This document shows positions 4,517-64,000 of a DNA stretch of 64,000 bases, one piece after another. Made by a program: the position numbers and the translations under genes. The DNA is from Deroplatys truncata (lineage: Eukaryota > Arthropoda > Insecta > Mantodea > Mantidae): positions 112,201,692 to 112,265,691 of the forward strand of contig CM060978.1 of NCBI GenBank assembly GCA_030765065.1, in the 5' to 3' direction. Below the pieces are notes generated by a model. It was not told the DNA's origin. It made no database searches and was given only the letters and a program-made list of their open reading frames with translations. How positions within the stretch are numbered: the first letter of the stretch is position 1; the number at the start of each line of letters is the position of its first letter.

Positions 4517-4518
4517 TT

Positions 4519-5395
4519 TTTATTTTCTCTACTACGTATAGTAAGTAGGGGAAGTATTGCATTCCGCCCAAAAATTCGATACATAGATTTCACCGAAAAT
4601 ACATGTTTTGAGGCCCCTGAATAAAAAACTTTAGAAAAAGGTTAGTGTGTGTGTCCGTGAACAGCATAACTCAAAAACGAAAAGTCGGATAAATACCAAA
4701 CTTGATATTTAGGTTCCGTATTTTTCAAAGACATGAGACGAAGATTTTCAAGAAAACCCCCCACCCCAGACTACCCTTTACGTGGAACATTTTTCGAAAA
4801 TTTTGATTTTCTCAAAAATGGCACTGACGATTTTGATTAAAATATCATATATTTGAGATATTTTCATGACAAATGAAATGTATATCTTAAATTTTCTGGA
4901 AATATCTCCAAAGTCCTCTTCATTCTGAATGGCTTTTGCATAGCTGGTAAACCGTAAAAGATAGACAACATTTTACTACGCAAAAAATGTATATTATCTT
5001 TAAAACAAACAATTTATACCATATACATTTCTCTCTCTCTCTCTCTCTCTCTCTTTTGTGTAGAGTGAACCATTTCCGAGATATTTCTTATTATTTGTTT
5101 GAATTTTCCATACTTTTTCTCAGAGGGAATACTTTATTGGGTTTTTTTTTAAATTATTTTTTATGTCCTGGACATGCAAAGGGAACGGAGTGCTCCACAT
5201 AGCAACCAGCTCTTAAAAGATTTGACTATCACTAAAAGCCTACCATATTCCCTTGCACCCAAGAAATTTAGCAATAAAATAACTTCTGCAAATGTTTATC
5301 TCGATTAATATGAAGTAGATGGAGAATAAGCGTTTGTAAAAATTGTTTGCACAAGAGTAGAGAAAGTCATGTGAATGTAACACATCAGATTTTTC
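4519..5395 (-). mobile_element. HINE-like ~870-bp repeat, near full length
   Basis: This inverted copy runs from TTTTCTCTACTACGTATAGT to AGTAGAGAAAGTCATGTGAA..ACACATCAGATTTTT, both ends of the family consensus. A (CT)n microsatellite lies inside at about 5028-5055 and another outside at 5427-5466. Confidence 0.78.
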
Positions 5396-18426: not shown

Positions 18427-18655
18427 TCTACATTTCACCGAAAATACAAGTTTTAAGGTTCTCTGAGTAAGTAAAAATAAAACATTAGAAAAGGGTGTGT
18501 GTGTGTGTGTCTGTGAACAGCATACATAATTAAAAATCGAAATGTCCCATCAATACCAAGCTTGCGAACTCGAAAATTTAGAACGTAATTCCCCACCCCA
18601 AACTATTTTCATGTGTAATTTTGGTTATTTTTATTTCTCAAAAAAGTAAAGAAGG
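18427..18655 (-). repeat. HINE-like repeat, body fragment
   Basis: It contains TTTCACCGAAAATACA and GTGTGTGTCTGTGAACAGCA in minus orientation, opposite to the array that follows. Confidence 0.6.
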
Positions 18656-18667
18656 AAAGAAAAAAAA

Positions 18668-25013: not shown

Positions 25014-26261
25014 CACTATGTGATCAAAAGTATCCGGACACCCCACAAACATACGTTTTTCATCTTAGGTGCATTGTGCTGCCACCTACTGCCTGACACT
25101 CATTATCCGCGACCTCAGTAGTCATTAGACATCGTGAAACAGCAGAATGGGACGCTCCGTGGAACTCACGGACTTCGAACCTGGTCGGGTGATTGGGTGT
25201 CACTTGTGTCAAAAGTTTGTACGCGAGATTTCCACACTCCTAAGCATCCCTAGGTCCACTGTTTCTGATGTGATAGTGAAGTGGAAACGTGAAGGGACAT
25301 GTACAGCACAAAAGCGTACAGGCTGACCTCGTCTGTTGACTGACAGAGACCGCCAACATCTGAAGAGGGTCGTAAAGAGTAATGCACAGACATCTATCCA
25401 GACCATCACACAGGAATTCCAAACTGCGTCAGGATCCACTCCAAGTACTATGACAGTTAGGCGTGAGGTGAGAAACCTTGGATTCCATGGTCGAGCAGCT
25501 GCTCATAAGCCACACATCACGCAGGAAAATACCAAACGACGCCCCGCTTGGTGTAAGGAGCGTCAACATTACACGATTGAACAGTGGCAAAACGTTGTGT
25601 GGAGTGACAAAATCACGGTGCACAATGTGGCGATCCGATGGCAGGGTGTGGGTATGGCGAATGCCCGGTGAACGTCATCTGCCAGCGTGTGTAGTACCAA
25701 CAGTGAAATTCGGAAGTGGTGGTGTTATGGTGTGGTCGTATTTTTCCTGGATGGGGCTTGCACCCCTTGTTGTTTTGCGTGGCACGATCACAGTGCAGAC
25801 CGACATTGATATTTTAAGCACCTTCTTGCTTCCCACTGTTAAAGAGCAATTCGGGGATGGCGATTGCATCTTTCAACACGGTCGAGCACCTGTTCATACT
25901 GCACGGGCTGTGGCGGAGTGGTTACACGACAATAACATCCCTGTAATGGACTGGCCTGCACAGAGTCCTGACTTGAATCCTATAGAATACCTTTGGGATG
26001 TTTTGGAACGCCGACTTCGTGCCAGGCCTCACCAACCTACATCGATACCTCTCCTCAGTTCCGTACTCCGTGAAGAATGGGCTGCCATTCCCCAAGAAAC
26101 CTTCCAGCATCTGATTGAAAGTATGCCTGCGAAAATCAACGCTGTCATCAAGGCTAAGGGTGGGCTAACACCATATTGACTTCCAGCATTACCAATGGAG
26201 GGCGCCACGAACTTGTATGTCATTTTCAGCCAGGTGTCCGGATACTTTTGATCACGTAGTG
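25014..26261 (+). mobile_element. Tc1-type DNA transposon, full length, 1248 bp, TA target duplication
   Basis: Terminal inverted repeats of about 29 bp begin CACTATGTGATCAAAAGTAT on the left and CACTACGTGATCAAAAGTAT on the right (reverse complement), with one difference. Each is flanked by TA (25012-25013, 26262-26263). The transposase gene fills the interior. Confidence 0.92.
25147..26179 (+). pseudogene. Tc1-type transposase, disabled
   Basis: The frame opens MGRSVELTDFEPGRVIGCHL at 25147 and covers the paired helix-turn-helix DNA-binding region and the DDE catalytic core, ending INAVIKAKGGLTPY at 26179. The total length fits the usual ~340-residue Tc1 enzyme. The first catalytic Asp is in VVWSDK (near 25600). 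The second motif, normally FQQDNAPVHT, reads FQHGRAPVHT, so that Asp is Gly. The third block is SPDLNPIEYLW with Glu intact. There is a TGA near 25327 after KRTG and a frame change near 25610. With a missing catalytic residue as well, this copy cannot encode an active transposase. It is likely a relatively young insertion because its terminal repeats are nearly identical. Confidence 0.92.
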
Positions 26262-45672: not shown

Positions 45673-45678
45673 TTTATT
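45673..45678 (-). promoter_or_regulatory. Nearest candidate AATAAA poly(A) signal after neuroglian exon B
   Basis: TTTATT on the plus strand reads AATAAA on the minus strand, about 106 nt after the exon B stop codon. Several further AATAAA hexamers follow at lower coordinates, so a much longer 3' UTR is equally possible. Confidence 0.3.
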
Positions 45679-45783: not shown

Positions 45784-45887
45784 CTACACATATGTGGCAA
45801 TAGCTGATGGAGACTGCTGCTCTTCTGGCCTTCGCTTGTTTCCAGGACCATATTGTCCAATGAATGAACCATCTTCTGTAAATTTTC
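45784..45887 (-). CDS. Nrg: Neuroglian alternative last coding exon B (Nrg180-like, neuronal tail)
   Basis: A TTTACTTTTGCAG acceptor leads into an exon that completes the phase-1 codon as GGA, reads KFTEDGSFIGQYGPGNKRR, and ends AIATYV with TAG at 45784-45786. GKFTEDGSFIGQY and a terminal ATYV are features I recall of Drosophila Nrg180, the neuron-specific form. In the fly the segment between them is a long Ala/Gly-rich insert in another exon arrangement; here it is compact. FIGQY binds ankyrin, and TYV-COOH fits a class I PDZ ligand. The exon shares its acceptor phase with exon A, so the two are interchangeable after the shared exon at 54.6 kb. In Drosophila the neuronal choice depends on the RNA-binding protein ELAV; that the same holds here is inference. 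Confidence 0.9.
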
Positions 45888-45988
45888 CTGCAAAAGTAAA
45901 GAAAAAATCATCGGAAAACGAGTTATTGACTTTCATTCATTAAAGCTGTTTGCTTAGAATCCGCTGCCAAAAGTCAGGCACATACCTA

Positions 45989-46086
45989 TTACACAAGAGT
46001 GGCAAAACCTCCTGATCCCGTCTCCCCTTGTTTCCTCTGTTGCCGGCCATATTGGCCTATAAATGATCCATCTTCATTCATTCCCT
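45989..46086 (-). CDS. Nrg: Neuroglian alternative last coding exon A (Nrg167-like, non-neuronal tail)
   Basis: After a TATACAG acceptor this exon completes the phase-1 codon as GAG and reads GMNEDGSFIGQYG, then a basic Q/R/K stretch, and ends GGFATLV followed by TAA at 45989-45991. GMNEDGSFIGQYGR is, from memory, the hallmark of the Drosophila Nrg167 (epidermal) tail, where only a few residues follow the GQYGR. Here about 18 residues follow. FIGQY is the L1-family ankyrin-binding motif, regulated by tyrosine phosphorylation. The C-terminus ATLV fits a class I PDZ ligand (T at -2, V at 0). A consensus donor TAG|GTATGT starts 3 nt after the stop codon (exon edge at 45986), so the exon could also be spliced onward with exon B as UTR. 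It lies only about 100 nt from exon B. Confidence 0.9.
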
Positions 46087-46160
46087 CTGTATACATGGAA
46101 ATAAAACATAAACAAAATAAAAGTGACAAAAAGTAAAAAATAAGCAAACAAAAATGTGTT
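46087..46160 (-). promoter_or_regulatory. U-rich tract before neuroglian exon A (candidate ELAV/Hu binding region)
   Basis: Read on the minus strand, about 70 nt before exon A consist of repeated runs of four to six U separated by one to three other bases, ending in the acceptor. ELAV-family proteins bind such U-rich or AU-rich runs, and fly ELAV regulates the nrg terminal-exon choice. The tract could instead be only an extended polypyrimidine tract. The 98-nt spacer between exons A and B has a shorter U-rich stretch just before exon B. Confidence 0.35.
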
Positions 46161-46689
46161 CAGTGGTAACATTACACTCAACTCTGCATTCACAACTTTT
46201 TGACAACATAACAGGGATCAACAAAACATGCTAGTGAGGACATCAATGTAATAAAATATAAAAACATGCAAAAAGATAAATAATTTTTGTAGTGAGCGTT
46301 CTTACCTGTTGCACGATCCAATGACTAAAAACCTAATTAAGCTCTTCTTTTGGTAATAATTCTAGAATACTTTACTTTTTGAAGAGCTGACAGCAGTGAT
46401 AAGATAAAGTATACTGTGCAGAATTTCTTGAACTATCATGCATTTAGGTTTGTGACTGTGTTGAGAGAAGGACCACTCATAAAGGAGGGAGAAAGAGACA
46501 CACATTGAGAACCCTGGAGTCTGGAAGACCCCTTTTCCATCCTACTCAAGTCACCACTGCACAAATTATGAGTAAGTTTGTAACCAATAGGGTGCTGCCT
46601 GGGACTTTGTGACAAACGAAAGACCAGGCACTGCAATTGTCAGGGGGCCTGGAATTTATGTAGGTTAGTCCTGGTTGAGAGCTGACTAA

Positions 46690-47450
46690 CAAATCAGTAC
46701 CAGGGGCTCACCTTGGTGAGTACGGGAGTGGCTACCCCGAGGTACCTGAGCCACCCAGTGTCTGGGAGTATAACCAGTCCACCCCGTCTCCTGGGGTCAG
46801 AAATAAGGAGGCCTGGTCCTCCAGGTTGGGAGTTAAGCATGGGGCTCTCAACCCCACTTGTAAACCTATTGTTAAGATGGATGGTTTGTTGTTGGCGACT
46901 TGGAATGTTCAAACTATGTTATGATCTGGAAAAATGAAAGAAGTGGCAAACAACTCTTAAGGTATTGGCTGGACAGTAGTGTTGCAAGAAAAACGTTGGA
47001 GTGGAAAAGGAAGAATAGATAGAGGATTACACATTATTGTATTGTGGATCAACTGAGCCTGGACTACACAAGATAAGATTTATTATCACAAAGGGAATAA
47101 AGAAGAGCCTAATAGAGTTGGACCCAGTTAATGAAGGATTGTGTAAAATAGACTTAAGGTCCAATTTCGAAATGTGACTATACTTTCTGTGTACACATCT
47201 GTGGAGGAGAGGGGAGTTGACAGGGAAGAATTTTCGTGATAGTTTGGAAGGAGAGTGTGGTGAAGGAGTTTCTAGATACGTTTATGTTCTTGGGTGATTT
47301 TGGTGCTGGAGTGGCGGGGAGGCAAGTGTTACTTGAACTAGATGTCGAGGTTGGTGTCTTGCATGGACAGTTTGTGATTAGAATTAATTGGATTATTAAG
47401 GAAGGAAGCTTCTTGTGTGTTATTGTTTTTTATAACTGTGTAGAATTGCA
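46690..47450 (+). mobile_element. LINE fragment: 5' region and endonuclease domain, truncated
   Basis: A GC-richer leader (46690-46880) is followed by LLATWNVQTML (near 46890), LQEKRWSGKGRIDRG (near 46985-47025), ILSVYTSVEERGVDREEF (near 47185-47230) and FLGDFGAGVAGRQ (near 47287-47325). These are the ordered motifs of an apurinic-type LINE endonuclease (N, QE, and GDF blocks). Stops and shifts interrupt it, and the reverse transcriptase is absent. It sits antisense in the long neuroglian intron. Confidence 0.75.
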
Positions 47451-50400
47451 TTGTACGTTTACGTTTGCTTAGTGTTAGTTCTTATTTGCCATATTCTGTG
47501 AGATTTCTATTGCTTAATTTTTGCATTTGTTGATTTACTGTTTCTATTTTTGTAATCCTGGTATTTCTCTCTGTGAATAGTCTGACTGTGTTGGTTTTGT
47601 ACCAGAATGTGATTATCTATATCAGACGTGGAGAAAACGGGACTCGCGAGTCATTTTGACTCATAGGTGCCGTTCTCTCTCTGCAACCGTCCCTTTGTTT
47701 TTCAAATGCTGCTGAGTGATGCAGTGCTGTTGCATATTTGGTGATTCGTGGAAGGAAGTCGTTTTTGCCACCCTTGATCTATACAACCAGAGCTGCTTCT
47801 GTAATCTGAGTTGACTTGTACTTGTTTTGTTTTTATTGTATTGCTGTACTGACTTGAATAAATTTATAGCCAGAGGGTGGTGCTGATGACTGCCGCAGTT
47901 TTGCACCACTCAAACTGCTATTACTACTAGTATCAGGTGTGTTACTGAGATTTATTTCTGTTCTCTTTCTGAGGCAGGTAAATTGAATAGATGACTAACA
48001 TTATATGTGCCTTCATAAAAGGTGTTAGCGACAGGTGCAGTTAGCCCTATGGTATGAAGATGCCAGTATTTGGTTCTATTTTCTTGACATGTCATTCACA
48101 TAAACAACTGCAGAGAAAAGGATAGTTTTTGAGAGCACAGTAAGTAAAGACTCAGTCATCCTCATCTTTGTGTGCTTAGATAATGTGCCTTTGGTGCTCA
48201 AATGCTGTTGAGTAACAGCAAATCTCTATATTTACATAACCAACAGTAACCAACAGACTTAATAATGCTCCATTACAGACTTCTTGTCAAGAGATCCTGG
48301 AGATTTTCTGTCTTTTCAATTACTTTCATTCAATCAACTTGAAAAGAATTGAAGTATAAGCATACTAGATGAACTGCACATTTATTGGATTAAAAGTTGT
48401 TTAGATATGCAGAATACAAGCAATAATTCACATTATTAACATTTACATTAGCACTTGAAAGTGTTCCGAGTTGAGAAGCTGGTATGCTGGGATTTTCTTA
48501 TGCAGATAGTTTGCCCATGGCTACATCAATGATATGGCCAAAGTCTCCTTGGTGAGGGTTTATTTGGTAATTGTAGTATACTCTGTGAATATTAATAAGA
48601 TTCTCAGGCAAGGGAATGAAGGAGGTTAAACTTGAGAGAATATGCCCATCATCCAGGGTATAAAACAACAGAACATCATTGCCAGAGAAGTAGTCTTCAA
48701 TATGAAATGCAAAATGTCAGAAGTTTTATGTCTGTGAAGTGGTTCTTATCGAGAATAAGAAGAAATTCAAGACACAGGCTTTTCTTTTTAAGCATCCCTT
48801 TTACATGTTCAGATCTGCAGATATACTGAAAGAAATGGATGAAATGTTCAAATGTACTGTTTCAAATTTGTCTTGAGCTTAAGGGAAAACTCCAAGAAAA
48901 CATAATCCAGCAAACTCAATCCAATGGATTTGAGCTCAAGCCATCCAAATTGGCCTGAAGTGGGCAAGACAAAGTTGTGAACGCCCATGTATAGTTTAAG
49001 TATTCTTGTTTATTAAATATGATAAGCATATCTCAAAACCATTTCTTACTTACCTGAGATTTTAGAGGGGAGGCAAGAAAAATGTCTAAGAATTTTCTCC
49101 ATGTTGTTATGGTTCAAAGCAAAATTGTAGTCTTTTCAAAACTTGTATTGTAAAATATTTAAGAATTCCAAAGACTACTAAAACCTCTAAACTCTTTCAT
49201 GCTTGGTGGTACAGTACATGATTTGTATCATCTTTTAAATGTGCTACAGATGTAGGCTAGATAATTATTATATGAACGACCTTCCAAAATTGCTAGTAGA
49301 AACTCTTGCACAACATTGCTGTAAGAAGTCCAATGAGCCAAAAACATCACATTTGTCCATCAAATGTCTGCCAAAATATGATGTGCTGCTTCCACCATGA
49401 TTATTGAAGTTTGCAGAGAATGCATTCTGGAACCTTCTTACTAATTGAGGTATGGTAGTTCAGAAAATTATTATATATTTTGGGATACTTGTGCTTAATT
49501 GAAAGCTGAGTAATATTGGCAATCTATATGACCTTTTGCATTGCACTGTAAGCATTTATCTTAAGAAAAAAAAGAGTATTGGCATTCACTATATTTGCTA
49601 GTACATACACAACTTTGCATGAAAGAGTTACAAAGTATGGGCAGCTTGAATTCTGTAATACTGCTTCCTTTCTGCTAGGATTAACACATTTTGTGTGAGT
49701 GATTATAACTGTACCGAGTTGTTCTACTAGTATGTTTACACACATGCATACACCGTAAGTGCAAGTCTAAATTTAATAGGTTGTCTAACTTACATCAAGA
49801 AATTCTGCATAATCTGTTGAAGCATTTTTAAGATTATCACTCTACTGTATGTTCACATTATTTGATTGAAAGTAAAACATTTGGAAAGCTCTACGAATGA
49901 AGCACAAAATTAAGACTGATTCTTATGAAATCACTCTTATTTTTCAACTTAGCTTCCAATAACATTATAGTGTTTGCATTTTCTCCAGTCCACTCAAGGC
50001 AATTTTTCCCTTTCTTTGAAACAGTCCCCCCACTCCACTCAATTCCCCTCTTGCAGTAGTATTGTTGAGTCCTCTTGCAACTCTAATCTCAAGCTGTGAG
50101 GGAAGGAGGGACTCTTGGGGAAACAATAGAAAGAGACAGATATACACAGTGAGAGTGGCGATTACTGTGAATGATCTCGACTGGATTGGCTAGAGTGAAA
50201 CCAAACCACTATAAGACAATTTACCCACAAAATATTCCTTAACTGATGCTTAAGTTCTATAAATGAAAATTGCTTTCCATTAAGAAATTTTGTTAGTCTT
50301 GGGAATAAATGGTATACAGGAATTAAATAAATGTAGCAGAAATCATAGTTTAATCATTGCTTTTTGGCAGAGAAGCTACCAAAACATGAGAGCAAGCAAT

Positions 50401-50477
50401 GTCTTGATGCAAGATGAGTTTGTTTTCTAGCATGTTTTTATATTTAAATGGTCCTAAAGGTTAACACAATATTAGAT

Positions 50478-50564
50478 AATTGAATCTTGAGTTGGTAGAT
50501 ACACTAAAACTTCACTTACATTCAAGTAAGTGAGGTTTTAGTGTATCCGACTCAAGATTCAATT
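50478..50564. repeat. Near-perfect 87-nt hairpin in the neuroglian intron
   Basis: Arms of about 40 nt pair almost perfectly around a loop close to ACATTCAAG. The arm AATTGAATCTTGAGT..TACACTAAAAC is matched by GTTTTAGTGTA..ACTCAAGATTCAATT, with about four differences. The inner TA|CACTAAAAC..GTTTTAGTG|TA looks like a miniature Tc1/pogo-type element, but the pairing continues beyond the TA. Confidence 0.8.
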
Positions 50565-52248
50565 AAATTACCATTTTGGTTCACTGTCTCCAACTTCTGA
50601 ATAACACTTCAACAATATTAGATGTTACAATTGAAAGCTATACCAATCAACAGGATGTCTTTGGCATTCCAGAGAACGGATATCATGATCTTTATGACCA
50701 GCTTCACTCATTTGACCCTTTTTGGTGTACAGAATCATAAAACTTCCATCTTTTAGACTCCTATTTTGTTTCTGGTTTGTAGTTCTGCATCCATGTTTCA
50801 ATACTGTTCACAAATCAATGCATAAAATCTGAGACTCTGGAAATATACCAAAACGTGCTCACACATCTGTCCTGATTCAATTCTGATCAAGTGTAAATAA
50901 GCGAGGTATCCATTTTGTTGAGAATAACATTAGATGATCCTCCAATATTATCTAGTGCACATTTTCGACAATTTTTGATAGAGATGCAGGTTTCAGCTCT
51001 CCAATGGGGCAACTTCCAAGCTTTCATGAGTGTGTTTGAATTTAATTGTGCACTTTTTTAAATAGGTTGCACAGTTCATGGTATGCCATGAAGTACAATA
51101 AAATTTCAATTTAACAGAGGTTAATAAGGTTAAGGAGTGACCATTACAGCAAATGAATAATATTGATAATAAAATATCTAATGGCACTAATATATTTTAA
51201 CAAGAATATTTTTATGTACATGAACAATTCAGAAACGAAACTCTATTATGTAGCGCAGAAAACAGCAGAGGTGATAACGCTGCCATTTTTACATTACCAT
51301 GCAGTATAATTCAGTACACATCCAGATGCACTAGCAAGAACATCGGTACTGCTACGAGTTTGCTCACTGTAACCTACAAAATGAGTGCCATGCTAAAAAC
51401 TCCTACCAATTGTGAGGTGAGTGGTGTTATAGGATTTCTTTAAGAACTTAGAAAACTCATGTAATTGAAGAGATGAAAATCGCTCAGTGCCAAGAGGGAT
51501 GATCAAAACTGTCCCATTTAAAGTTATGCAAAAGTTGAGGTTTTTGAGAACTGTGAAGTCAAGGAATGTCATGCAAAAACACAACACCCAATGTCAGCAT
51601 ACCACATTTGACTTACTTAAGTTTTTTTTTTTTAAAAGAAATTTTATAACATCACACACTTTGGATTTGGCTGGATTTTCTAGTGCTGTATTCATTTTGT
51701 ATGGTTATGGTGAGCAAACGCATAGCAGTAGAATATTCTCACTAGCATAGCTGGATGCGCACTACTGAATTACGCTGTAGAGCGACATAAAAATGGAGGT
51801 GCTATCCCCAACATTTCCTGCGTTACGTGACAATATAGGTTATTTTCCATATTGACCTCATATATACCATTTTATTGGTGATTGGTAGGGAATCCAGTAA
51901 GTCTCAATCATGAATTTTGTGAACTTGATAAAATCATTTGTTTCATTCTTAATTTGCATTTATATACCTTACTGTATTTTAACTTGAAAGTAAACCTTTG
52001 AAAAACTATTAATTTCATAGGAATTCAGGGCACATTAATCCAGGTACCAAACAACTGAGGAGCAAACCATGAGGGGGGGAAAAGGCAAAATTTTAATTCA
52101 ATTACAATTTTTACCAAAATTTGAAAGATTCTGATGAATTTTGAGTGTGAGTTTATTCAGCCAGCAGAATTTATGCATTTTTGAGCTATGAAAAGGATAT
52201 ACAATAAAAATGATTAAGCAGCATTAGGAAATATAATCTGGATCAATT

Positions 52249-52960
52249 TTGATATTAAGTTATACGACAAAACTCAATTTAATCATGAGCAACAAAACTA
52301 AAAAACTGAGAAACAAAGCACAACATTTACGAAAAAACAAAGCTCGAAACAATCGGGATAACACGATAAAAACCACAAAGGAAACAGACACTGTTGTTAA
52401 GCTGTCGACTCAATCTTTTACCGAAAAGATATGAAGCTGTTAAACAATGCTTAAAAACATGTCTGAGTTATTCACACAATATAGATGATTACATTGCAGA
52501 TGCTGAAATTATCACGTATATGATGAAAGATAAAGACAAATGGTAGCTAAAGGAAAATGCCAAAAAGTGTTGGAACAAATGTTAACTTTAAAAACTAGTA
52601 AAGCAGACTCAGAAATTAAATAGCTTATTTTTGAATTAAGTAAGAAACCTGTGATTTACCTAGGCAACAAAACCATCATATGGATAAGGATGATTATATA
52701 AACAGAGTTGATAAGCTACTACAAAAATCAAGAATATAAAGAAAAACCCAAGAATCCTATAAGATCTTATTTGATTGCAGTACAGAAGACAAACATAGCT
52801 TGATCATTCCTTAAACACAACAAGTAATCAAACCAAATAGCCATGAATTTTGAAATATTGGTTCATATGACATCATACGACTCATCAATGGGAATGACAG
52901 CAGAACAAACAACAGGAGAAAGGGAAGCAGATATCTGACAAGAGCCAGTCAACTGATCAA
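52249..52960 (+). other. Unrecognised AT-rich open stretch
   Basis: A 61-codon Lys/Asn/Thr-rich frame begins at 52249 and, after one break, similar composition continues (YEAVKQCLKTCLSYSHNIDD, then DAEIITYMMKDKDKW). It does not match a family I know. It may be a decayed mobile-element protein or chance. Confidence 0.25.
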
Positions 52961-54585
52961 CTGAGGATAAGGAGGAAGTCTCCTTGAAACATGTTCTATG
53001 ATTTGACAAGTGGAGCAAAAAATGTTTTTAAAGGTTGACCAAGTTTTCTACAATATGAAAAAAAATACTTATGATATGTCATACTCTGCATGGTTTTTAA
53101 TGCTCACTGCAAGCGTACTGACTACTATTCTAAGTGGCTCTCTCCATTTGCCTCTGCCATTAACCAGTGTTACTGTAATCTTTAACAATAGAGGATTAAG
53201 ATGAGCATGCCTTCTGCTCTTCAAAAGAATAGCCTGTAATGCCTGTTCTGGCTTCAAAGGTCCTGCCATCGTTTTCTTGGATGTCCCAGAATCTCTTTAG
53301 GTGTACACTTTACTGTCTTTTTGGGGATTCTTGGAATTCATTGTTTTGCTATTATTTTGCAGGTTTCCTGTGTGAAAGCATCATATGCTGGATATTGTGT
53401 TTATAATAATTCTGTGGAGAATTCAAAAGAAGACAGTTGCTTTTACACAGTATTTACATGGCTCTTTCCAGGCAAAGCACTTGTGCAGTAACATTGCTCC
53501 GCGTCACATGACCTGCCAGTGCATAGCAAGTGACAATGAAACAAGATAAAGGGTACTATCTCTGTCTGACTCTCTTTCTCTCTTACAGAGGCTTTCACCC
53601 ACCCGTCTCCATGTGCTCCTGACTCTAGCATCACTATTTACTTTGAGAAATTTACTTCAAGGACTAGAAAATCCAGTTTATTTGTACTCCACTTTTGCCT
53701 GTTAGTAACTAATGACTGAAACTGCCAAAATGTTTAACACACTCGCCTCCAGATAGATGCAATTATGAACAGAATAATGCCATCCGTATATTTTCTAACC
53801 ACTGATAGTTTCAGACCAACAAAAACAGCTGCTTGGTTCATTAACAACTTCCTAACTGTCCTATAAAATATCTCCTATAATCTCTTCTGGACCGAACATT
53901 TTTCAGCCTGGGTTTCCTTTATGATGTAGACCAGTTTTCATCATTCTTGAACCATCACAAATAGAAGCAAATGTATCAAAAGTCTCTATTCATAAATATT
54001 CCCTATCACTGCAAATTAACTATTACAATTACTTCTTATTAATTATTTAATTATTTATGTTCATCAAACTATATTTGTTAAATTACTATTAATTAAATCC
54101 AGATCTACTGTATTTATTTACCATACAGTTACGGTACTGAAATTTGCCATTATGCATCTATAGGCATCTGCTCTGCAATAAAGACCAGTGATTACTCTTG
54201 TGCTTTACTGAGTGCAGTATTTCACAAAGATATTTCTGTAAAATTTGGCAGACTTTAATACAGTAATTTATTGGGAACTAAGTTGAAACCTATGGGCCAC
54301 TTCATGAACTTTCCAAATGACCCTGTACATCTTGGAGTACAACTAGAAGCTACCAATTAAAAAGAATCTTCTTATATTACAAATTATACTAAATAGTACA
54401 CATGTTGAAAGTTTTGGTTCCCAAAATAACAAAAAACTATGTCTTGAGAACATAAAAAACAACACATGAATTGTATTATTTTCATGCTTTCTAAAACTTA
54501 AACGAGGGCACGTTTAGGTACAAATTACTTTTTGTACCTGAGACATTGACTGCTTCTTAATCGACCACGTTGCAATGTAACTAAC

Positions 54586-54689
54586 CTGTATCACCATCCC
54601 CATACTCTGCCATGGAATCTGTATCACTTTCTGGAGGTGCCTTTGGATCACTACTCAGTGAACCGCGGCCATGAGATTTATTGTCAAGT
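54586..54689 (-). CDS. Nrg: Neuroglian, shared cytoplasmic-tail exon (internal)
   Basis: This 104-nt exon is bounded by a TTTATTTCAG acceptor and a CAG|GTTAGT donor on the minus strand. It encodes 34 whole codons and leaves phase 1 at the donor. The peptide begins LDNKSHGRGSLSSDP and ends ESDTDSMAEYGDGDT. From memory, the Drosophila neuroglian tail has LDNKS and ESDTDSMAEYGDGDT just before the ankyrin-binding site, so the match is highly specific. Neuroglian is the insect L1CAM homologue, a single-pass adhesion molecule with Ig and FnIII domains that is linked to spectrin through ankyrin; this exon would be cytosolic. The exon encoding the juxtamembrane part is not visible upstream on the minus strand within the window, so the intron on that side is at least 9.3 kb. 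The exon would splice to either terminal exon near 46 kb, since both accept phase 1. Confidence 0.93.
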
Positions 54690-55020
54690 CTGAAATAAAC
54701 GTTAAATAATGTATAATTTATAAATGCTAAAGAATATCACTCTGCTATACTATTTGCTATTAAGGGTAAAGGTTATCAAGGGATTGTATCATAATTATCA
54801 AACAAAGAAAAAAAGCTGTAAAAGTCATCAGATATTTGCAACGCTTACTTGAATGGTCTCAGTAAAACATGCTGTTCCACAAGGTTTAACTTTAAATCCA
54901 ACATTACTTTTCCTATATATATATATCAATGATATTTTCAGTACGCCAATAATTGGTTTGACAGTAACAAAATTCATATAAACTTACAAAAATAAACTAG
55001 ATGCATTAACTTTTATATAA

Positions 55021-55880
55021 AAAAATCTGATGAGTTACACTCACATGACTTTCTCTACTCTTGTACAAACTATTTTTACAAACGTTTATTCTCCATATGC
55101 TTCATGTTACTTGAGATATCGAGATGTCAATCTTATTGCTAATTTTCATGTAGATGCAAGGGGAACATGGTAGGTTATAAGCGATAGTCAAATGTTTTAA
55201 GCGCGGTTGCTATGTGGCGCATTCTATTCTGTTTGCATATCCAGGACATAAAAAATTGAATAACGAATTTGAGAAAAAGTATAAGTATTGGAAAATTTAA
55301 GGAAATAACAAGCAATATCTCAAAAATGGTTCACTCAACTAAAAAAATGTATATGACATAAATTGTGTATTTTAACGCGATCTACATTTTTTGTGTAGTA
55401 AAATTTTGTCTATCTCTTATGGTTTACCAGTTATGCAAAAGTCGTTCACAATAAAGAATACTTTGGAGACATTCCCAGGAAATTCAAGATATACATTTTA
55501 TTTGTCATAAAAATATCTTAAACATATGATATTTTAATCAAAATCGTTGGAGCCATTTTTGAGAAAATTAAAATTTTCGAAAAATCTTCCATGTAAAGGG
55601 TACTCTGGGGTGAGGGGATTTTCTTGAAAACCTTCGTGTCGCATCCTTGGAAGATACTGAACCCAAATACCAAGTTTGGTGTTTATCCGACTGTTCGTTT
55701 CTGAGTTATGCTGTTCACAGACACACACACAGACAGACACACACATGGACATGTTTCCAAAAATGCTTTTTTGGATTCAGGGGGTCTCAAAACATGTATT
55801 TCCGGTAAAATCTCAGTATCGAAATTTTGGGTGGAATACAATACTTCCCCTACTTACTATACGTAGTAGAGAAAGTAAAA
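55021..55880 (+). mobile_element. HINE-like repeat, full-length single copy (H+B)
   Basis: One uninterrupted H module (TCTGATGAGTTACACTCACA..CCAGGACATAAA) is followed by one B module ending GTAGTAGAGAAAGTAAAA at about 55880. It is flanked by A-rich sequence. This solitary copy shows that H+B is the basic unit and that the 18.7-23.3 kb array is a derivative. It lies in the neuroglian intron upstream of the shared exon. Confidence 0.85.
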
Positions 55881-56107
55881 ATAATGCATATTTCAGGATA
55901 TAATATCAAGGCAATGAAATCACCAAATCTAGCAAAATAGCTTCTTGTTCTTTGTTATCGATCTGTGTATGAATTGGAAGGATCATATTAAACTCATATT
56001 TTGCAATGAAATCATTTACTTATTTTACAAATAAGAGCATCCAAAAAACAATTTGCTTTTCATTCATTAATGACTGGAGATTCATATGCTAAAAGATATT
56101 CCTTAGA

Positions 56108-56162
56108 GGTGGAGGTGGAGGTGGTGGTGGTAATAATAATAGCAGCAGCAGCAGCGGAGGCA
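56108..56162. repeat. Compound (GGT)n/(ATA)n/(GCA)n microsatellite
   Basis: GGAGGTGGTGGTGG, then AATAATAATAG, then CAGCAGCAGCAG in succession. Confidence 0.85.
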
Positions 56163-56528
56163 AAACAATACAACCCGCTATTCAAAACATTAGCCTGTAC
56201 TGTAGCTCTACTTTTATTTGTAGTCAACAACCCAAAAGTGTTGATAAAACATACAAATATCTACCGCAAAGAGATCTCACAAAGACTAAGTAATATTTTG
56301 CAAATATACAGTTTACTACAGTATTTCATAATTCATTTCCATCATCCATAAAGAAATTAATACTAATAATATTAAGTTCAGGTCAGCTTTAAAAAATATA
56401 ATTTTTATTGATACCTTCTATGCAGAGGATTTCATTCAATCATGAAATTTACTGTACTAACTTTGCTCCACTAAATTAATTCAGTTTTACAAATATAAAT
56501 TTACCATTATGCTTCATATACTTATATA

Positions 56529-59143
56529 CAGTGAAACTTTGATTTTACAGTCCTTCAATGAATTGGTTTTTTTGGGGGGGAAGGGGGGCAATTCCATAGA
56601 AAACTCTTGTGGTCTGTACCAATAACGCATGCATACGCAATGTTAAATTTTACCTGAATTTAAGTTTTCTGGTTTTATGTTTTCTTCAATTCTATGCCCT
56701 AAAAATAATTTCTAATGACTCATATTTTTCTAAATTTTACATTTTTTTTTTTTTTTTGCTCTCAAGTGATAATAGTTGATTCTCGTAAGATCATGGCAAA
56801 ATGGCAGGCAGTTGTCTGTTACAGAGCTTGAAAAGGCATGATTTTATAGGTTACGAACCAAACTGAGCCATTGTCTGGCATACTGGAACATATAAAAGTA
56901 ATGAATATACAAAAGTATTACACTTCAATGCATCACTGAAACCATATTAAACAATATAAAATTATAGTTGGATCTGTTTGTGAATCTCATTGAGCGTAGA
57001 AATATAGTTTAAGACAATCATTATCCTGCGGTAATGCATACGTTCAACATTGCACCATGCATGAAGATGACCTTTTGATTTATTTACACATGGCCACATA
57101 TTCAGGATAAATTTTGTTGAAACTTTATTTTGTTTACGTAATGCTCCCTATCCTGCCAAATCCTCTGCTAACCCAGAGAGTATAGAATTCTCCGGCCAAA
57201 TCATGCAACTGGAAAAATTTGTTGTTCATCTGTCTGGTGATTTTCAAAACATCTACAGCTGGCAGCAAGATGCAATCACTGTTACCTTGAACAGCATCTG
57301 TTTTGCTTTGCTACATCTACATGTGTGTTCTGATCTGTTTTGCACTTTGAAGCTGTAAAGACTGAAATCGAATTGCTGCAAATCTTTTTGAATCCACGTT
57401 CACGATTACTGAAATTTAATTTTCAATTGATATATTACAGAATGAAAGGAAATAATGCAAAAAAGCCAAGTTTTTTCAGTTAACGAGAAAACAAAAATTT
57501 TAAATCAAGTCAATGGAAATTTTGGAACACGTGTGGACTTGACTTGCGACTTGACATACCAGCATTTACATTGAATGCAATTGTTAAAAATTGTGTTGAA
57601 ATTGAAGAGACATACATGCATGGAGGTGATTTTTCAAAATGCAAATCATTAAAGCAGTCTCCTCTGCAAGAAGTGGAATCAGTTCTCGGATCATGCATGG
57701 TTTGAACAAGCCCACGCTAGCAACATATCTGTGGATGGCAGTGTGCTCTGGCAGAAAAAGTTGTACTTGGCAGCTCGGCTTGGAATCAATTTAAAAAGTG
57801 CCACAACAGTACAAAAGTCTATCAGGAGAGAGTGCAAGTGTGAGCATTGATACTGAGGAAGAATGGAAAGCTGGAGTTCTCCTTAAGGAATTAGAGGGCT
57901 ATGAAATGAAAGACATTCATAATACTGATGAAATGGGGCTGTATTATAATTTGCAGCCTCAGAAGACTCTGGCTAACAACAGGGAAAGTTGCCAGAGTGA
58001 AGCAAAAGTGAAGCAAAGGCCTACAGTTTTGTTAAGCTGTAATGTTGATGGAAGCGACAAATTATCACCATTGGTAATTGGAAGATTCCAGAAGCCACAC
58101 TACTACAAAAATGTTAAGACGTTGCCAACTCCCTACGAAGCTAATTGCAACTCTTGGATGACATGAGCCATTTTTGAAAATTATCTGTTGCAGCTTGACA
58201 GACAGGTAGGGTCACAAAACTGTAAAATCGGTTTGTTCATCAACCAGTGTGTGGCACACCTTAAGAATGTTGCATCAACATTAAGAAATGTGAAACTTGT
58301 ATTTTTTCCTGCAAACTGTACCAGTAAATTCCAGCCTTTAGGCATGGGCATAATTCTGACTTCAGTATTTTTACCTGAAGCAGGTTGTGCACAAAGCAAT
58401 TGCAATGGTTGACAATGGATTGATGGATGCAACAATAATCAAAATAAGTGTTCTCCAAGCAATGAACTTCATTTCTGAAGCATGGCTTGCTGTGACTCAA
58501 CCAACCATCAAGAACCGCTTCAGGAAAGCTGGTTTCCCTGTAGAGGATCTTGATTTGGAGGAACCTGTGCCAACTGGACTGGATAAGTTGGAGGAATCAG
58601 CATGGAAAATGGAACTCCAATGAAGCAGACTTCAATGACTGTGGCAAGTGTGATAATGAACTATCAGTGTGTGAAGTACAAACCATAGACCAAGTTCTGG
58701 GGCAGCAGGTGTCTGCTACAGAAGATGATAATATGAGGAAGAGGAACCAGAGCAACCAAAGCTACATTCCATGAAGCATTAAGTGGCTTGGATGCAGTAA
58801 AATACCTGTATTCTTTCAACATTGATAGCAAACATTTAGTGATGTGCAACAAGCTTAAAAATGAACTTTACAGATTTAAATCAACAGAGAAAATTAAATA
58901 AGTTTCCATAATAAATTGGCTGAGAGAGTAATGTTTTATAAGTCTTGACTAGCTGTTATTCCATATTGATTCAGTATTCATTTATTATTTATTCAGTTCT
59001 TTGCAATAGTAATATGTAGTATGTTAATTTGAGTAATACTGCATGCATGAAACTTTTCATTGGCTTCCTTGATTTTACATTTTCCTTAATTTTACAACAT
59101 TTTCCAGTGGTCTGCAGATAAGCGTAAAATGGGAGTTTCACTG
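56529..59143 (+). mobile_element. Tigger/pogo-type DNA transposon, 2.6 kb, TA target duplication
   Basis: The left end CAGTGAAACTTTGATTTTAC (56529) matches the reverse complement of the right end, CAGTGAAACTCCCATTTTAC (ending 59143). TA lies outside both ends (56527-56528, 59144-59145). A jerky/Tigger-like transposase relic fills the second half. A third similar end (CAGTGAAACCCTGCTTAACC) occurs alone at 59325. Confidence 0.85.
57424..58774 (+). pseudogene. Tigger/jerky-like transposase, decayed
   Basis: The N-terminal CENP-B-type DNA-binding region starts near LSEKTKILNQVNGNFGTRVD (57465), followed by WFEQAHASNISVDG (near 57695). The catalytic part has KSLSGESASV, EGYEMKDIHNTDEMGLYYNL (first Asp present, near 57925), SDKLSPLVIGRFQKPHYYKN and LFINQCVAHL near 58232. 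In intact relatives that last motif reads LFLDNCPAH, so the second Asp is lost. QPLGMGII near 58340 replaces QPLDQGII, so the third is lost too. EAWLAVTQPTIKNRFRKAGF near 58480 is the usual C-terminal helix region. A TGA follows WMT at 58164. All breaks show a long-dead copy. It lies antisense to neuroglian. Confidence 0.87.
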
Positions 59144-59218
59144 TATAAAAGTATGGGATACCACTGTGGTAAAATATCACAGTGACAGAAATATAAAAGG
59201 ATTTTTTTAATTATATTA

Positions 59219-59400
59219 AAAAAAAACAAAAAAAAAAAGAAAGAAAGAAAAGAGAGAGAGAAAAGTAAACAGTAGAGATGCATGCAGATTTTAATATTTA
59301 AACAATTCAGTATTTTAACTATTACAGTGAAACCCTGCTTAACCACACTGCAGTTAACAGAAACAGTGGAAAAAAAGAAAAAAAGGAAAGAAAGAATGAA
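59219..59400. repeat. Purine-rich low-complexity sequence
   Basis: Poly-A and (AAAG)n/(GA)n tracts at 59219-59270 and 59366-59400. Open frames here are low-complexity artefacts. Confidence 0.75.
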
Positions 59401-59814
59401 AAAATACAAAGTATTAAAATTCATGCAACCAACACTGCTGCGACAATTGGCAATGTTCTTTTGCCCCAATCCTAAATTCCAATGTAGGTTTATTATTATT
59501 ATTGTTTAATTTTTTTTAATTTTAAAGAAAGAGAGCAATAAATGCTCTTTGCAATGTGACCAGTTATGGTCTATTGTGCTTCCCTTCATTTAATCTCATA
59601 AGATCTTTGCCTCCTTTGCAAACTCTCCAAGTCTCTTAGCAGGCACTTCTTGAAATTGTAAGATAACCTGCTTAAGTGATTTAACCCTAAGAACTGAGAG
59701 CTTCACAGTGTGGCAGTAATTTGTATCACAATAATGTAAATGCCAGAGTGATTGTAGTGTAAATAAGCATTATTGTATGACATTGATTTGAGATGTTTGT
59801 TAATTATAAGCATT

Positions 59815-60490
59815 GTTAGGAAATAAGTTTTCACGGCCTCACTGAAACTGACAATAAGATCGGTTAACAATGAGCGAGGGGCTGAGTTGTTTATCAATTA
59901 TTAGAGACAAGCAAATGACGTCAGATTGGCGCGCTTTTCTTAGAAATGGCGGGAATTTCTTCCCTAGAGCATATGTTTTCGTAATTTTTGATTGGATATA
60001 AATATAGACGCTAATGTTGGCACGTTTTATTAACCAATAGCAGCTCGGTTATAATCTTTAGGCATATTAGGGTGTGGGAGTATAAAAAGCTAAAGCCAGA
60101 GGCAAGTATTGCCCAGTTCAACAAAATCATCCACACGTTACACGTCGCTGAGTCCAACAGAATCAGTCAGAAGTTAAATGTCGCTTAGTTCAACTTAAGT
60201 ATTCGTGAGTTATACGTCGCATAGTTCAACGGAAGCATACATGAAGTACACGTTACGCAATTCTACAGAATCTCTCGCGTCGTAAAGTTATTTATAAATG
60301 TGAAATATGCAAATTAATAAAGTGCGGCAAATAAGTGATTATAATAACATTAGAAAACATAACAGTTTCAGTCTGGTGTGTATTAAGAATAATATGTGAA
60401 ATTGAATACTGTGTGACGACAATAAAAGTGTAAAAACAAATTCTTTTATCAGTGTTATCTTTCAGTAACAAAATCCTTTCCGTTTACACA
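59815..60490 (+). mobile_element. LTR-like fossil unit (possible solo LTR)
   Basis: A CCAAT box (near 60037), a TATA box (TATAAAAAG at 60081-60089) and an AATAAA-type signal near 60420 are arranged like the U3-R-U5 parts of an invertebrate LTR. The unit may begin at TGTTAGG (59815) and end at TTACACA (60490). No matching target duplication or internal coding region was found, so a cellular-type promoter repeat remains possible. Age cannot be judged from one copy. Confidence 0.35.
60111..60282 (+). repeat. 36-bp tandem repeat, about 4.8 copies
   Basis: Units start at 60111, 60147, 60183, 60219 and 60255. They share the pattern GCNNAGTTCAAC...GTTACACGTC. The unit length is exactly 36 bp in four copies while the sequence has diverged. 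The array starts about 30 bp after the TATA box, where transcription would start. Confidence 0.85.
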
Positions 60491-60837
60491 CCCTGTTTAA
60501 GAGATGTGCTCGACCAAGAAACAATAGCTAGCCGAAGGAAATTAACCCAACATTCAAAGTAGTAAACCAATAACAGGCGCTCAGAAATAAGATAACACGA
60601 AGTGACCGCAACAAATTGGCTCCCATACGTTGTGCAGATAAACATGAAGCATCTTACAACTACCAAAAAATAATCTACTCCAACAGTCACACAGCAAATG
60701 AGATACTGTTTCATTTGCTCTCCTGCATAGTCTATATATTTGATTTCCAAAATATACTATGAGGAAAAAAAAGTATAAGATCATTCCATTAAAAATAAAA
60801 ATGGTAACTTACCCACAAGTAAAATTGAATAATTAAA

Positions 60838-61440
60838 GAGGTGGCAAGAAATCTTAGTGAAATGTTAAACCTAAATGATATAAATGAAAGACATGAAAAT
60901 AAAAATGAAAATGAAGAAATAAATAAAAATGATATGGAAGAAAATTTTGTACACGATAGAAACATACATTGCAAAATTTATACACCAACTGAAAGTGAAA
61001 TAATTACAGCACTGAAACAAAACAAAAATGGGAAAGCTGCAGGAATAGATATTTCTCCTGAGATACTATAGGCTGATATTAATTTTACAGCAGACATCAT
61101 TCACCCATTTATTGAGCAAATATAGGAGAAAGAGAATCTACCAACTGGAATCTGACTGGAATAAAGGACTAATTGTTAAAATATCTCCCCCAAAAGGGGG
61201 GGACTACAATGGTGTGTAATAATTGGAGGGGAATCATGTTATCAATTTCCAGTAAAATTCTATCAGAATCATGTATAATAGAATTGCGCAAGAGGTAAAT
61301 AAATTGATAAGGAAAGAACAAGCAGATTCTGAATATAAAGGTCATATGTTGATCAAATAAGTATTCTAAGAATAATCTGTGACAGAGCAATGAATGGAGG
61401 AACACTATACCTTTTTTAACATAACACTTAATGGGAAACA
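60838..61440 (+). mobile_element. LINE reverse-transcriptase fragment, N-terminal part
   Basis: An open frame runs from about 60841 through PTESEIITALKQNKNGKAAG then IDISPEIL (near 60985-61070). It continues with FTADIIHPFIEQI, a decayed GLIVKISP..NNWRGI block, and QADSEYKGHMLIKQVF. These match the LINE RT opening: the KNGKAPGIDGIP..L motif, then WRGITLLS and DQIF..R. It stops before the FADD catalytic motif. Strand is plus. Its 5' and 3' parts are missing; it abuts the Penelope-like remnant at 61.47 kb. Confidence 0.75.
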
Positions 61441-61472
61441 CAGTGAAGTAGATAAAATATTAATAAAAAATC

Positions 61473-61567
61473 TAGTGGCAGTACACTCTAACTTCACTCT
61501 TTCAAGATAATTACCTTGAATGCATTTCGAAGACAACTTGTCTTCATCATCAGCTAAAAGCCACTAA
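61473..61567 (-). ncRNA. Hammerhead-ribozyme-like motif in Penelope-like remnant
   Basis: The minus strand contains CTGATGA (61547-61553), a perfect hairpin GAAGACAAGTTGTCTTC (stem II) and GAAA (61525-61528), the conserved hammerhead core. TTCAAG..CTTGAA forms a hairpin in the stem III region. TAGTGGC..GCCACTA closes stem I, with a GTA cleavage-type triplet just inside. Stem III is weak next to the core. Confidence 0.65.
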
Positions 61568-62036
61568 CGAGCCTGTCGGTTCTGGTGTAGAGGTCGCCAT
61601 TGGGCTTCCTGATGTTGACATCATTTTCGGCTTGATGTATTTAAAGATGAGATCCTTTTCCAGAGGGAAATTGAAATTCATTAGACGGCATTTGTTTTTT
61701 TGTATGAAGAGTTTTTCCCGCATCGTCAATTCTATGGGATTTTGGATCGACTTGATTAAATTTATTTTTATGAATGTTGTGGTTTAAATTCCAGAAATGA
61801 TATGTGACGGCAGATTTTTCAGTTTCTTTGTGTCTTATATTTCTAAAATGTTCTTTCAGTCTGACCCCTATGAAAATGACATCAATGTCAGGAAGCCCAA
61901 GAGCAACCTCTACACCGTAACCGACAGACTTGTTAGTGGCTCTTAGCTGGCGTTGAAGACAAGTTGTCTTTGAAATGCGTTCAAGGTAATTATCTTGAAA
62001 GAGTGAAGTTACAGTGTGTTGCCACTAGATTTTTAT
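61473..62036 (-). mobile_element. Penelope-like element remnant with inverted terminal arms
   Basis: Two arms of about 165 bp (61473-61637 and 61875-62036) are inverted copies of each other, roughly 85-90% alike by eye. They begin TCTAGTGGCA/TGCCACTAGA at the outside. The 240-bp centre on the minus strand reads GVRLKEHFRNIRHKETEKSA followed by VTYHFWNLNHN, the C-terminal half of a Penelope GIY-YIG endonuclease (compare TRLKEQMR..SAVSHHFWITNH in the neighbouring element). The reverse transcriptase part is absent. Confidence 0.78.
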
Positions 62037-62120
62037 TAATACTATATCTTTTACGTTGATATTGTAATGAAAAGAAGCTAGAAACAGTGATGTGTATTGA
62101 ATTTATTTAAAGGTGAGTCG

Positions 62121-62205
62121 GAATTGTTACACTAACATCACTTAAGTTTACTCACTTAACATGTTTCGGGAAACCGTTGTTCCCATCCTCAGAAGGTTAA
62201 CTCGA
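62121..62205 (-). ncRNA. Hammerhead-ribozyme-like motif at the 3' end of the Penelope-like element
   Basis: The minus strand has CTGAGGA (62186-62192, fitting CUGANGA), a hairpin GGGAACAACGGTTTCCC (stem II) and GAAA (62164-62167). A CAT..ATG stem III follows directly, then a GTT cleavage-type triplet. TT/AG plus GTTA/TAAC can form stem I. Penelope-like elements are known to carry hammerheads in their terminal repeats. Confidence 0.72.
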
Positions 62206-62823
62206 CTGGCCCGTGTTGTTGGTGTTTCCATTTTTTGGACTGGATCCTGTGGTGGCATCTTGTGGTGGAGAAATGTACTTCCAGAGTGGATTTGGTGGCG
62301 GCAAATCAAAATTCATTAGATGTGTGTTGTGTTTTAGAATGGTGATCTTCTCCCATGCATCTAATTCGGCTGCAAATTTGGCTGGTTTGACTAATGTAAT
62401 ATTGGGTTTGATGTGATTAGTGATCCAAAAATGGTGTGAAACTGCAGATTTGTCCATTAGTTTGTATTTAATACATCTCATTTGCTCCTTTAGCCTAGTT
62501 TCTAGGTTTCTTTTTGTCTTACCTATGTATACTTTATTGCAATCTGAACAATTGATTTTATAGATTCCAGCTTTTTTGTCTTGTGGAATGGGGTCTTTTA
62601 ACTTGTTACAGAGTAATTTCTCTATGTTAAATTTGTTCTGTGGAGCTAGGCTGATGTTATGTTTGAAAATCTTCTTAAATTTGTGAAAAGTTCCTGGGTG
62701 GTATGTGAATTTCTTGAACTTTAGCTCTTTATCTTGCTGGCTGAGATTTGTTCTGTTTCTGATGTGCATCTGTCGTTTGAATTTTGCAATTTTTTTTGTC
62801 AATAGTTGTTTTGTTGTACCCAT
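62197..62823 (-). CDS. Penelope-like GIY-YIG endonuclease domain
   Basis: The frame shows a basic linker (KIAKFKRQMHIRNRTNLSQQ) and then AGIYKINCSDCNKVYIGKTK with GIY at residues 86-88 and YIG at 99-101. R110 (ETRLKEQ) and a downstream ELDAWEKI that probably supplies the catalytic Glu follow. CSDC plus the SHHFWITNH histidines fit the CCHH zinc-binding feature of Penelope endonucleases. The domain would nick target DNA for priming. In intact elements it is fused C-terminally to the RT; here it lies in another frame that overlaps the RT frame by about 95 nt, with one frame change in a T-rich run. That could be mutation or an assembly error. Confidence 0.9.
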   Translation of the reverse strand: MGTTKQLLTKKIAKFKRQMHIRNRTNLSQQDKELKFKKFTYHPGTFHKFKKIFKHNISLAPQNKFNIEKLLCNKLKDPIPQDKKAGIYKINCSDCNKVYIGKTKRNLETRLKEQMRCIKYKLMDKSAVSHHFWITNHIKPNITLVKPAKFAAELDAWEKITILKHNTHLMNFDLPPPNPLWKYISPPQDATTGSSPKNGNTNNTGQSS

Positions 62824-64000
62824 TATGTATTGCTGTGTCTACTATATGCTGGTATTCTAACTGGTATTCTTTTTTATTTAAGGGGGTATATACCAGTCTA
62901 TGTGTTAGGCTGTTTAGTACTGCATGTTTGTGTGTGGTTGGATTGAAACTCTTATTTTTTATGTAATTAGTAGAGTGTGTTGGCTTCCTGTATATGCCAA
63001 AGGTTAGGTTCTTTTGTTCTCTGATGATTTTTAGGTCTAAAAATGGTAGCATGCCTTCTTTTTCTATTTTTATGGTGAATTTTATTGATTGGTTCTGTAG
63101 GTTTAGTAAGGCTAAGGAGTCTTGTATGAACCTGTTAGGGACAACAGCGAAGATGTCGTCAACATATCTGTGCCAAACTTTAAACATGTATGGAAAGGAA
63201 GTTGTTATGTGTGTTTCTAAGTAGCTCATAAATAAATCTGCCAAGAAGGGTGAAAGTGGGTTGCCCATGGTTAAACCAGTTGGTTGTTGATAGAACTTCT
63301 TATTGAAACTAAAACAATTTTGTGCATTGCATAAATTGGTAAGTTGTATGAGGTCTACTATTTCTTCTTCAAGTAGGTTAGTCTGCTGTAGCCATTTCTT
63401 TAATTGACGCAGGAGTTGATCTGTAGGAACACTTGGAAATAGTGCAGTGACATCAAAGGAAACTAATCTGTCTTCTGGTTCGAGTTCCAGGGATTTTATC
63501 TTCTGTATTAAATCTTCTGAATTCCTTATGTTTTTGCTATTGAATTTTGGTAGTGAAGAGAATCTCTGTACTAACCATTTTGCCAGTTTGTAGGTAGGAG
63601 AATCAATATTGCTGACAATTGGTCTCATCTTATTACCCGGTTTGTGTATTTTAGGTAGAGCATACATTCTTGGTAAAGTGGGGTGATCTGGTTTTAATCT
63701 AGATTTATCAGTGCCTGTTATAGTTTTGCTTTCCTGGATGGTTTGATTGAAGGCTTTTAAATGTAATTTTAATGGGTCTTCTTGAATTTGTATGTAATTT
63801 TCTTGTTGCAGCATATTTTCTACTCTGGCAATATAATCATCTTTTTGCAGTACAACTAGTTTATTTCCCTTGTCAGCTTTTGTGTATACTACTGGTTTTG
63901 ATTTTAATGTTTTGATCACATGTTTGGTTGGGAAATTGTTATGTTTATCTGCTTGTATTTCTTGGAGAACCATTTCACATTCTTTTTTTATAGTGGTTTT
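62729..64000 (-). CDS. Penelope-like reverse transcriptase (partial)
   Basis: The visible frame remains open to the window edge. Counting from the Met at 63973, VVYTKADKGNKLVVLQKDDY lies at residues 28-47, MYALPKIHKPGNKMRPIVSN near 103-122, SFDVTALFPSVP near 172-183, TMGNPLSPFLADLF near 235-248, and RYVDDIFAVV near 269-278. LPFLDLKI and FGIYRKPTHSTNYI follow. The FDV..F and YVDD blocks supply the three catalytic Asp. LP.IHK and the single-F FDV motif are typical of the telomerase-related Penelope RT clade. All key residues are present, suggesting a fairly recent insertion. The reading frame leaves register with the endonuclease part near a run of eight T at about 62789-62796. Confidence 0.92.
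   Translation of the reverse strand, partial: KTTIKKECEMVLQEIQADKHNNFPTKHVIKTLKSKPVVYTKADKGNKLVVLQKDDYIARVENMLQQENYIQIQEDPLKLHLKAFNQTIQESKTITGTDKSRLKPDHPTLPRMYALPKIHKPGNKMRPIVSNIDSPTYKLAKWLVQRFSSLPKFNSKNIRNSEDLIQKIKSLELEPEDRLVSFDVTALFPSVPTDQLLRQLKKWLQQTNLLEEEIVDLIQLTNLCNAQNCFSFNKKFYQQPTGLTMGNPLSPFLADLFMSYLETHITTSFPYMFKVWHRYVDDIFAVVPNRFIQDSLALLNLQNQSIKFTIKIEKEGMLPFLDLKIIREQKNLTFGIYRKPTHSTNYIKNKSFNPTTHKHAVLNSLTHRLVYTPLNKKEYQLEYQHIVDTAIHNGYNKTTIDKKNCKIQTTDAHQKQNKSQPAR

Follow-up and report, generated by a model that had tools for sequence, protein, structure and literature searches.

The question raised by the locus described here is whether the choice between two ankyrin-binding tails of a neuroglian protein is made by splicing alone or by the use of different poly(A) sites. 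The non-neural nrg mRNA of Drosophila has an upstream poly(A) site, which is bypassed in neurons (PMC8904962; see also PMC8055025; statements on published systems refer throughout to the available parts of the papers cited). The locus lies in a 64 kb stretch of Deroplatys truncata DNA, referred to as the window, which is a single sequence and to whose positions all coordinates refer. Judged by its sequence, the locus encodes the cytoplasmic end of an L1-type neuroglian; the gene lies on the minus strand, and one shared exon can be joined to either of two closely spaced tail exons. We consider it fairly probable that both tails are used, that splicing switches between them, and that both mRNAs finish at one distal poly(A) site; the proximal tail would then be encoded by a stop-carrying exon or by an RNA in which the 98 nt between the tails are retained.

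The spliced products match the Pfam family PF13882 (Bravo_FIGEY) with 54.6 and 55.9 bits (E = 2.5e-14 and 9.7e-15), the curated cut-off being 23.8 bits. Taken singly, the three exons have PF13882 as their sole Pfam family at E <= 1 (E = 1.5e-4, 1.7e-4 and, for the shared exon, 5.3e-4), each match lying slightly below the cut-off. The PDB chain 7xce (neurofascin–ankyrin-3) was matched by the distal tail with 29.7 bits (E = 7.2e-6) and by the proximal tail with 22 bits (E = 0.0017). When the window is translated in all six frames, the pattern FIGxY turns up exactly twice, both times at these tails. The assignment to the neuroglian family and to a tail switch, already made in the initial annotation, is thus supported by Pfam, by the PDB match and by the published arrangement in the fly. 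Translation verified that both tail exons encode the same ankyrin-binding core, EDGSFIGQYG, as had been claimed. At the DNA level, five differences separate the two cores of 30 nt, all of them synonymous and at third codon positions; 19 of the 90 single changes possible in the core are synonymous, and a random distribution of changes over it would give such a pattern with a probability of about 4e-4. A DNA comparison of the two tail regions gave one strong match (29 nt at 86%, E = 7e-4), and the remaining three matches listed (E up to 1) covered only 9 or 10 nt. Because the changes in the core are synonymous only and the likeness at the DNA level is short, the pair appears to stem from an old exon duplication that was kept under constraint at the protein level. 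A different gene or a chance resemblance is ruled out by the Pfam match and the synonymous-only core. Searches with the distal-tail protein yielded six pattern matches in the viral_contigs collection and 73 in genome_contigs, none of which was confirmed as a relative; this was expected for an animal gene compared with viral and prokaryote collections. The window was without a match in Rfam at the gathering threshold.

The exon borders proposed earlier (54689-54586 for the shared exon, 46086 and 45887 for the two acceptors) and the phase-1 donor were borne out by the splice ends and the reading frames. The shared exon is in frame with either acceptor, and two FIGQY tail exons of the same phase can therefore be joined to it, as in a switch of the Nrg167/Nrg180 type. 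The product reads LDNKSHGRGSLSSDPKAPPESDTDSMAEYGDGDT followed by either EGMNEDGSFIGQYGRQQRKQGETGSGGFATLV or GKFTEDGSFIGQYGPGNKRRPEEQQSPSAIATYV, and the spliced in-frame ends are ...GDGDTEGMNEDGSFIGQYGRQQRKQGETGSGGFATLV and ...GDGDTGKFTEDGSFIGQYGPGNKRRPEEQQSPSAIATYV, each followed by a stop. The tail exons contribute 32 (proximal) and 34 (distal) residues, with the split codon counted in each, and together with the part encoded by the shared exon the predicted tails comprise 66 and 68 residues with masses of 6.9 and 7.2 kDa. The upstream intron, given as 8.5 kb, measures 8499 nt; the spacing of the tails, given as 100 nt, had to be corrected to 98 nt (45985-45888, with GT...AG ends). Read-through of the shared donor leads to GDTG and a stop, which might represent a form devoid of FIGQY, similar to isoform G of the fly.

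None of the five splice sites falls below the 95th percentile of its class on the strand. The acceptor and the donor of the shared exon reach the 95.4th and the 99.2th percentile, respectively. The proximal acceptor (score 3.11, 96th percentile) is weak next to the distal acceptor, whose score of 10.11 is the highest of the 3568 AGs on the strand. The donor GTATGT at 45985 (score 4.02, 98.85th percentile of 3649 GTs) is the sole good one among the seven GTs in 46080-45889, the others scoring −3.4 or less. It is directly abutted by the TAG of the proximal tail, whereas the preceding TAA ends 3 nt before it, and the distal acceptor follows at a distance of 98 nt, so that the stretch in between has the GT...AG ends of an intron. 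None of the 11 types of poly(A) hexamer tested occurs between the proximal acceptor (46086) and the distal stop (45785), and a proximal poly(A) site of its own, which characterises alternative last exons of the ELAV type, was accordingly not found there by these hexamers. Because hexamers are lacking, a good donor follows the stops and the best acceptor lies 98 nt further on, the proximal tail is probably a cassette exon, or an exon that keeps the 98 nt, with a distal poly(A) end. Of the two interchangeable last exons named in the initial annotation, both can be joined in frame; the word "last" is doubtful for the proximal exon, which has no hexamer and is followed by a donor. The first AATAAA downstream of both tails is listed in Table 1, and a second one follows at 45423.

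Table 1. Features of the neuroglian tail region of D. truncata (window positions)
Feature	Position	Strand	Details
Shared cytoplasmic exon	54586..54689	−	104 nt, LDNKS...ESDTDSMAEYGDGDT; phase-1 GT donor, GTTAGT at 54585
Intron between shared exon and proximal tail	46087..54585	−	8499 nt
U-rich tract adjoining proximal acceptor	46099..46155	−	candidate regulatory site
Proximal tail exon	45986..46086	−	101 nt up to candidate donor; EGMNEDGSFIGQYG...ATLV
Stops of proximal tail	TAA 45991-45989, TAG 45988-45986	−	
Candidate mini-intron	45888..45985	−	98 nt, GTATGT...TTTTGCAG; proximal stop codons on one side, distal tail on the other
Distal tail, coding part	45784..45887	−	GKFTEDGSFIGQYG...ATYV; stop TAG 45786-45784
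First AATAAA 3' of both tails	45673..45678	−	candidate shared poly(A) signal

On the basis of these elements, a switch can be proposed in which the shared exon is either joined to 46086, giving the Nrg167-type tail, or skips to 45887, giving the Nrg180-type tail. The proximal tail would be a stop-carrying cassette exon, and removal of the 98-nt mini-intron would link it to the distal exon, the latter then serving as 3' untranslated region (UTR); alternatively, within the same proposal, the 98 nt may stay unspliced in the proximal form. Both forms would finish at the common distal poly(A) end, and the close spacing of the tails likewise suggests that one RNA end is probably common to both. A stop codon 3 nt from a junction should be safe from junction-dependent decay. 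Because the proximal TAA ends at this distance from the junction, the mRNA of the proximal form is predicted to escape such decay. The decision point would be the weak proximal acceptor: its recognition would yield the first tail, and if it were blocked, possibly through an ELAV/Hu-like protein bound to the neighbouring U-rich tract, splicing would go to the strong distal acceptor instead. By analogy with the fly, the distal tail would be used in neurons and the proximal one outside of them.

The tract at 46155-46099 holds seven of the intron's 21 runs with eight Us in ten positions (runs partly overlapping). Such clustering is unusual: of 348 acceptor-like sites on both strands, only three, one of them the proximal acceptor itself, reach this number of such positions in 100 nt, and 11 have as many Ts. 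The core motif of ELAV has been described as U5N2U3 (PMC11551757). One copy is present in the 100 nt upstream of the proximal acceptor and another within the 98 nt (at 45907, 3' of the proximal stop); the 504 nt that begin at 45887 contain none. Masking of the proximal acceptor by a U-binding protein, for example ELAV/Hu, is conceivable; ELAV is kept as a candidate only, because U5N2U3 is not enriched.

Several points weigh against the proposed splicing switch. The splice-site matrices were built from approximate frequencies, and acceptors are commonly U-rich, which weakens the case for ELAV, as does the lack of U5N2U3 enrichment at the proximal acceptor and in the 98 nt. The absence of hexamers is weak evidence by itself, since only about 0.26 AATAAA or ATTAAA would be expected by chance in 98 nt, and a non-canonical proximal poly(A) signal is possible. 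By homology, the upstream poly(A) site of the non-neural fly form favours a proximal end (PMC8904962). Furthermore, other neuroglian exons were not found by Pfam in the three minus-strand frames of 54690-64000: the six Ig domains, the Fn3 domains and the transmembrane segment expected of an L1-type protein gave no match there. The juxtamembrane motif GGKY is absent from the six frames of the window. The remainder of the gene must extend past the window.

Three other explanations were weighed. The first is a sub-case of the favoured one, namely a plain alternative 3' splice site, with donor 45985 unused and the 98 nt always part of the 3' UTR. A single splicing decision would suffice for it and the donor score is not extreme, but the donor is the sole good one of the interval and stands opposite the best acceptor of the strand over 98 nt. 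This version is held to be unlikely, if the least so of the three. Somewhat more doubtful is an arrangement of alternative last exons as in the fly, with a non-canonical proximal poly(A) site in the 98 nt or in the early distal exon and an ELAV-type bypass in neurons. It matches review accounts of Drosophila nrg (PMC8904962; PMC8055025), and one U5N2U3 copy, at 45907, lies past the proximal stop and within the 98 nt; the missing hexamers and the good donor immediately past the proximal stop codons speak against it. That one tail is a relic or the locus a pseudogene fragment is very improbable: the 9.3 kb upstream (54690-64000) yielded no further exon of the gene and contain pieces of transposable elements, but the introns argue against a retrocopy, the frames are open, the core differences are synonymous only and each of the five splice sites scores high in its class.

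A bolder form of the splicing switch is about evenly balanced in our judgement, with a slight lean towards doubt. According to it, the switch in this gene would be independent of poly(A)-site choice, with a 101-nt stop-carrying cassette, 98 nt ahead of the neuronal exon, for the non-neuronal tail, escape from decay, a shared 3' UTR and PDZ-type ends on both forms; the bypass of the fly would either have arisen by rewiring at a later time or be one of two mechanisms for the same switch.

The window also contains repeats and mobile-element sequences. A repeat of about 870 nt at 55018-55884, with copies at 18.6-23.3 kb and, inverted, at 4517-5394 (full-length copies 78-91% identical), has one copy that is separated by 330 nt from the shared neuroglian exon, on its upstream side; a segment of the repeat makes up a tandem array of a 232-nt unit (3.1 copies, 18653-19364). 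Inside the 8.5-kb intron, 50477-50565 is a self-inverted segment of about 90 nt (85%) that resembles a small foldback element or a miniature inverted-repeat transposable element. On the minus strand, 62197-64000 encodes a reverse transcriptase (PF00078, E = 2.8e-11); the GIY-YIG match that comes after it is weak and lies below the cut-off. Owing to this pairing we take the sequence, which runs off the end of the window, to be a Penelope-like element. Pfam found nothing beyond these two domains in the three minus-strand frames of 54690-64000. An inverted repeat adjoins the element (61466-61628 and 61872-62034; 163 nt, 88% complementary, 243 nt apart). A fragment of a DDE_1 endonuclease on the plus strand (57795-58166; PF03184, E = 5.4e-10) is presumably pogo/Tigger-like. 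Also on the plus strand, two frames that overlap at 25327-26179 encode a transposase of the Tc1/Tc3 type (HTH_Tnp_Tc3_2, E = 1.6e-14; DDE_3, E = 3.8e-11), which appears broken.

Since a switch between two tails has long been familiar from Drosophila, the present case is ordinary in kind; it extends an established switch to another, repeat-rich genome. The aspect that merits further work is that the switch may not depend on the choice of poly(A) site, and the locus offers a simple way to test which came first, splicing alone or bypass of a poly(A) site. The tails are of near-equal length, and both C-termini read T-[L/Y]-V, which presumably fits the class I pattern of PDZ ligands. This calls for caution with two assumptions from the fly when other arthropods are considered, i.e., names given by mass and a PDZ-type end restricted to the neuronal form. 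Names by mass would not apply here because the tails differ only between 6.9 and 7.2 kDa. If both ends are indeed of the PDZ type, the switch would alter the flanks of the core more than it gains or loses a PDZ contact.

A FIGQY ankyrin-binding tail is shared with the vertebrate L1 family (neurofascin, L1, NrCAM and CHL1), and the match to 7xce extends to both tails; paired tail exons of this kind are not known from vertebrates. The flank GMNEDGS of the proximal tail and G-x-FTEDGS of the distal tail are tentatively assigned to Nrg167 and Nrg180, respectively. The order of the tails and the PDZ-type end of the distal one agree with these labels, although the proximal tail ends similarly. Judged by title or the start of the abstract, no paper on neuroglian tail exons outside flies was evident among the matches listed, most subscription journals lying outside the coverage; the available parts of two papers on the neuroglian protein of Manduca (PMC2746287, PMC2990333) do not treat tail exons. 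In Drosophila ewg and other ELAV-regulated last exons, the choice between a proximal and a distal end is likewise linked to U-rich RNA (PMC8055025). These genes bypass a proximal poly(A) site, whereas no proximal hexamer and no enrichment of U5N2U3 were found here. The counterpart in the fly, Drosophila nrg, gives rise to nine mRNAs with six coding exons in common and three groups of terminal exons, encoding 17 residues (Nrg167), 80 residues (Nrg180) and, in one isoform, an end without FIGQY (PMC11075550). Neurons express Nrg180, and Nrg167 occurs mostly in other cells (PMC2346466; PMC3796554). In contrast to these lengths of 17 and 80 residues, the tails of D. truncata have 32 and 34, and the poly(A) site that the proximal form possesses in the fly has no counterpart among the 11 hexamers. 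The PDZ-type motif has been named for the end of fly Nrg180 (PMC3627646); the distal tail of D. truncata has such an end as well, and the proximal tail likewise ends in T-L-V. Common to both insects is a shared cytoplasmic part that is followed by one of two ends, with FIGQY encoded on each of the alternative exons (PMC11075550; PMC3796554).

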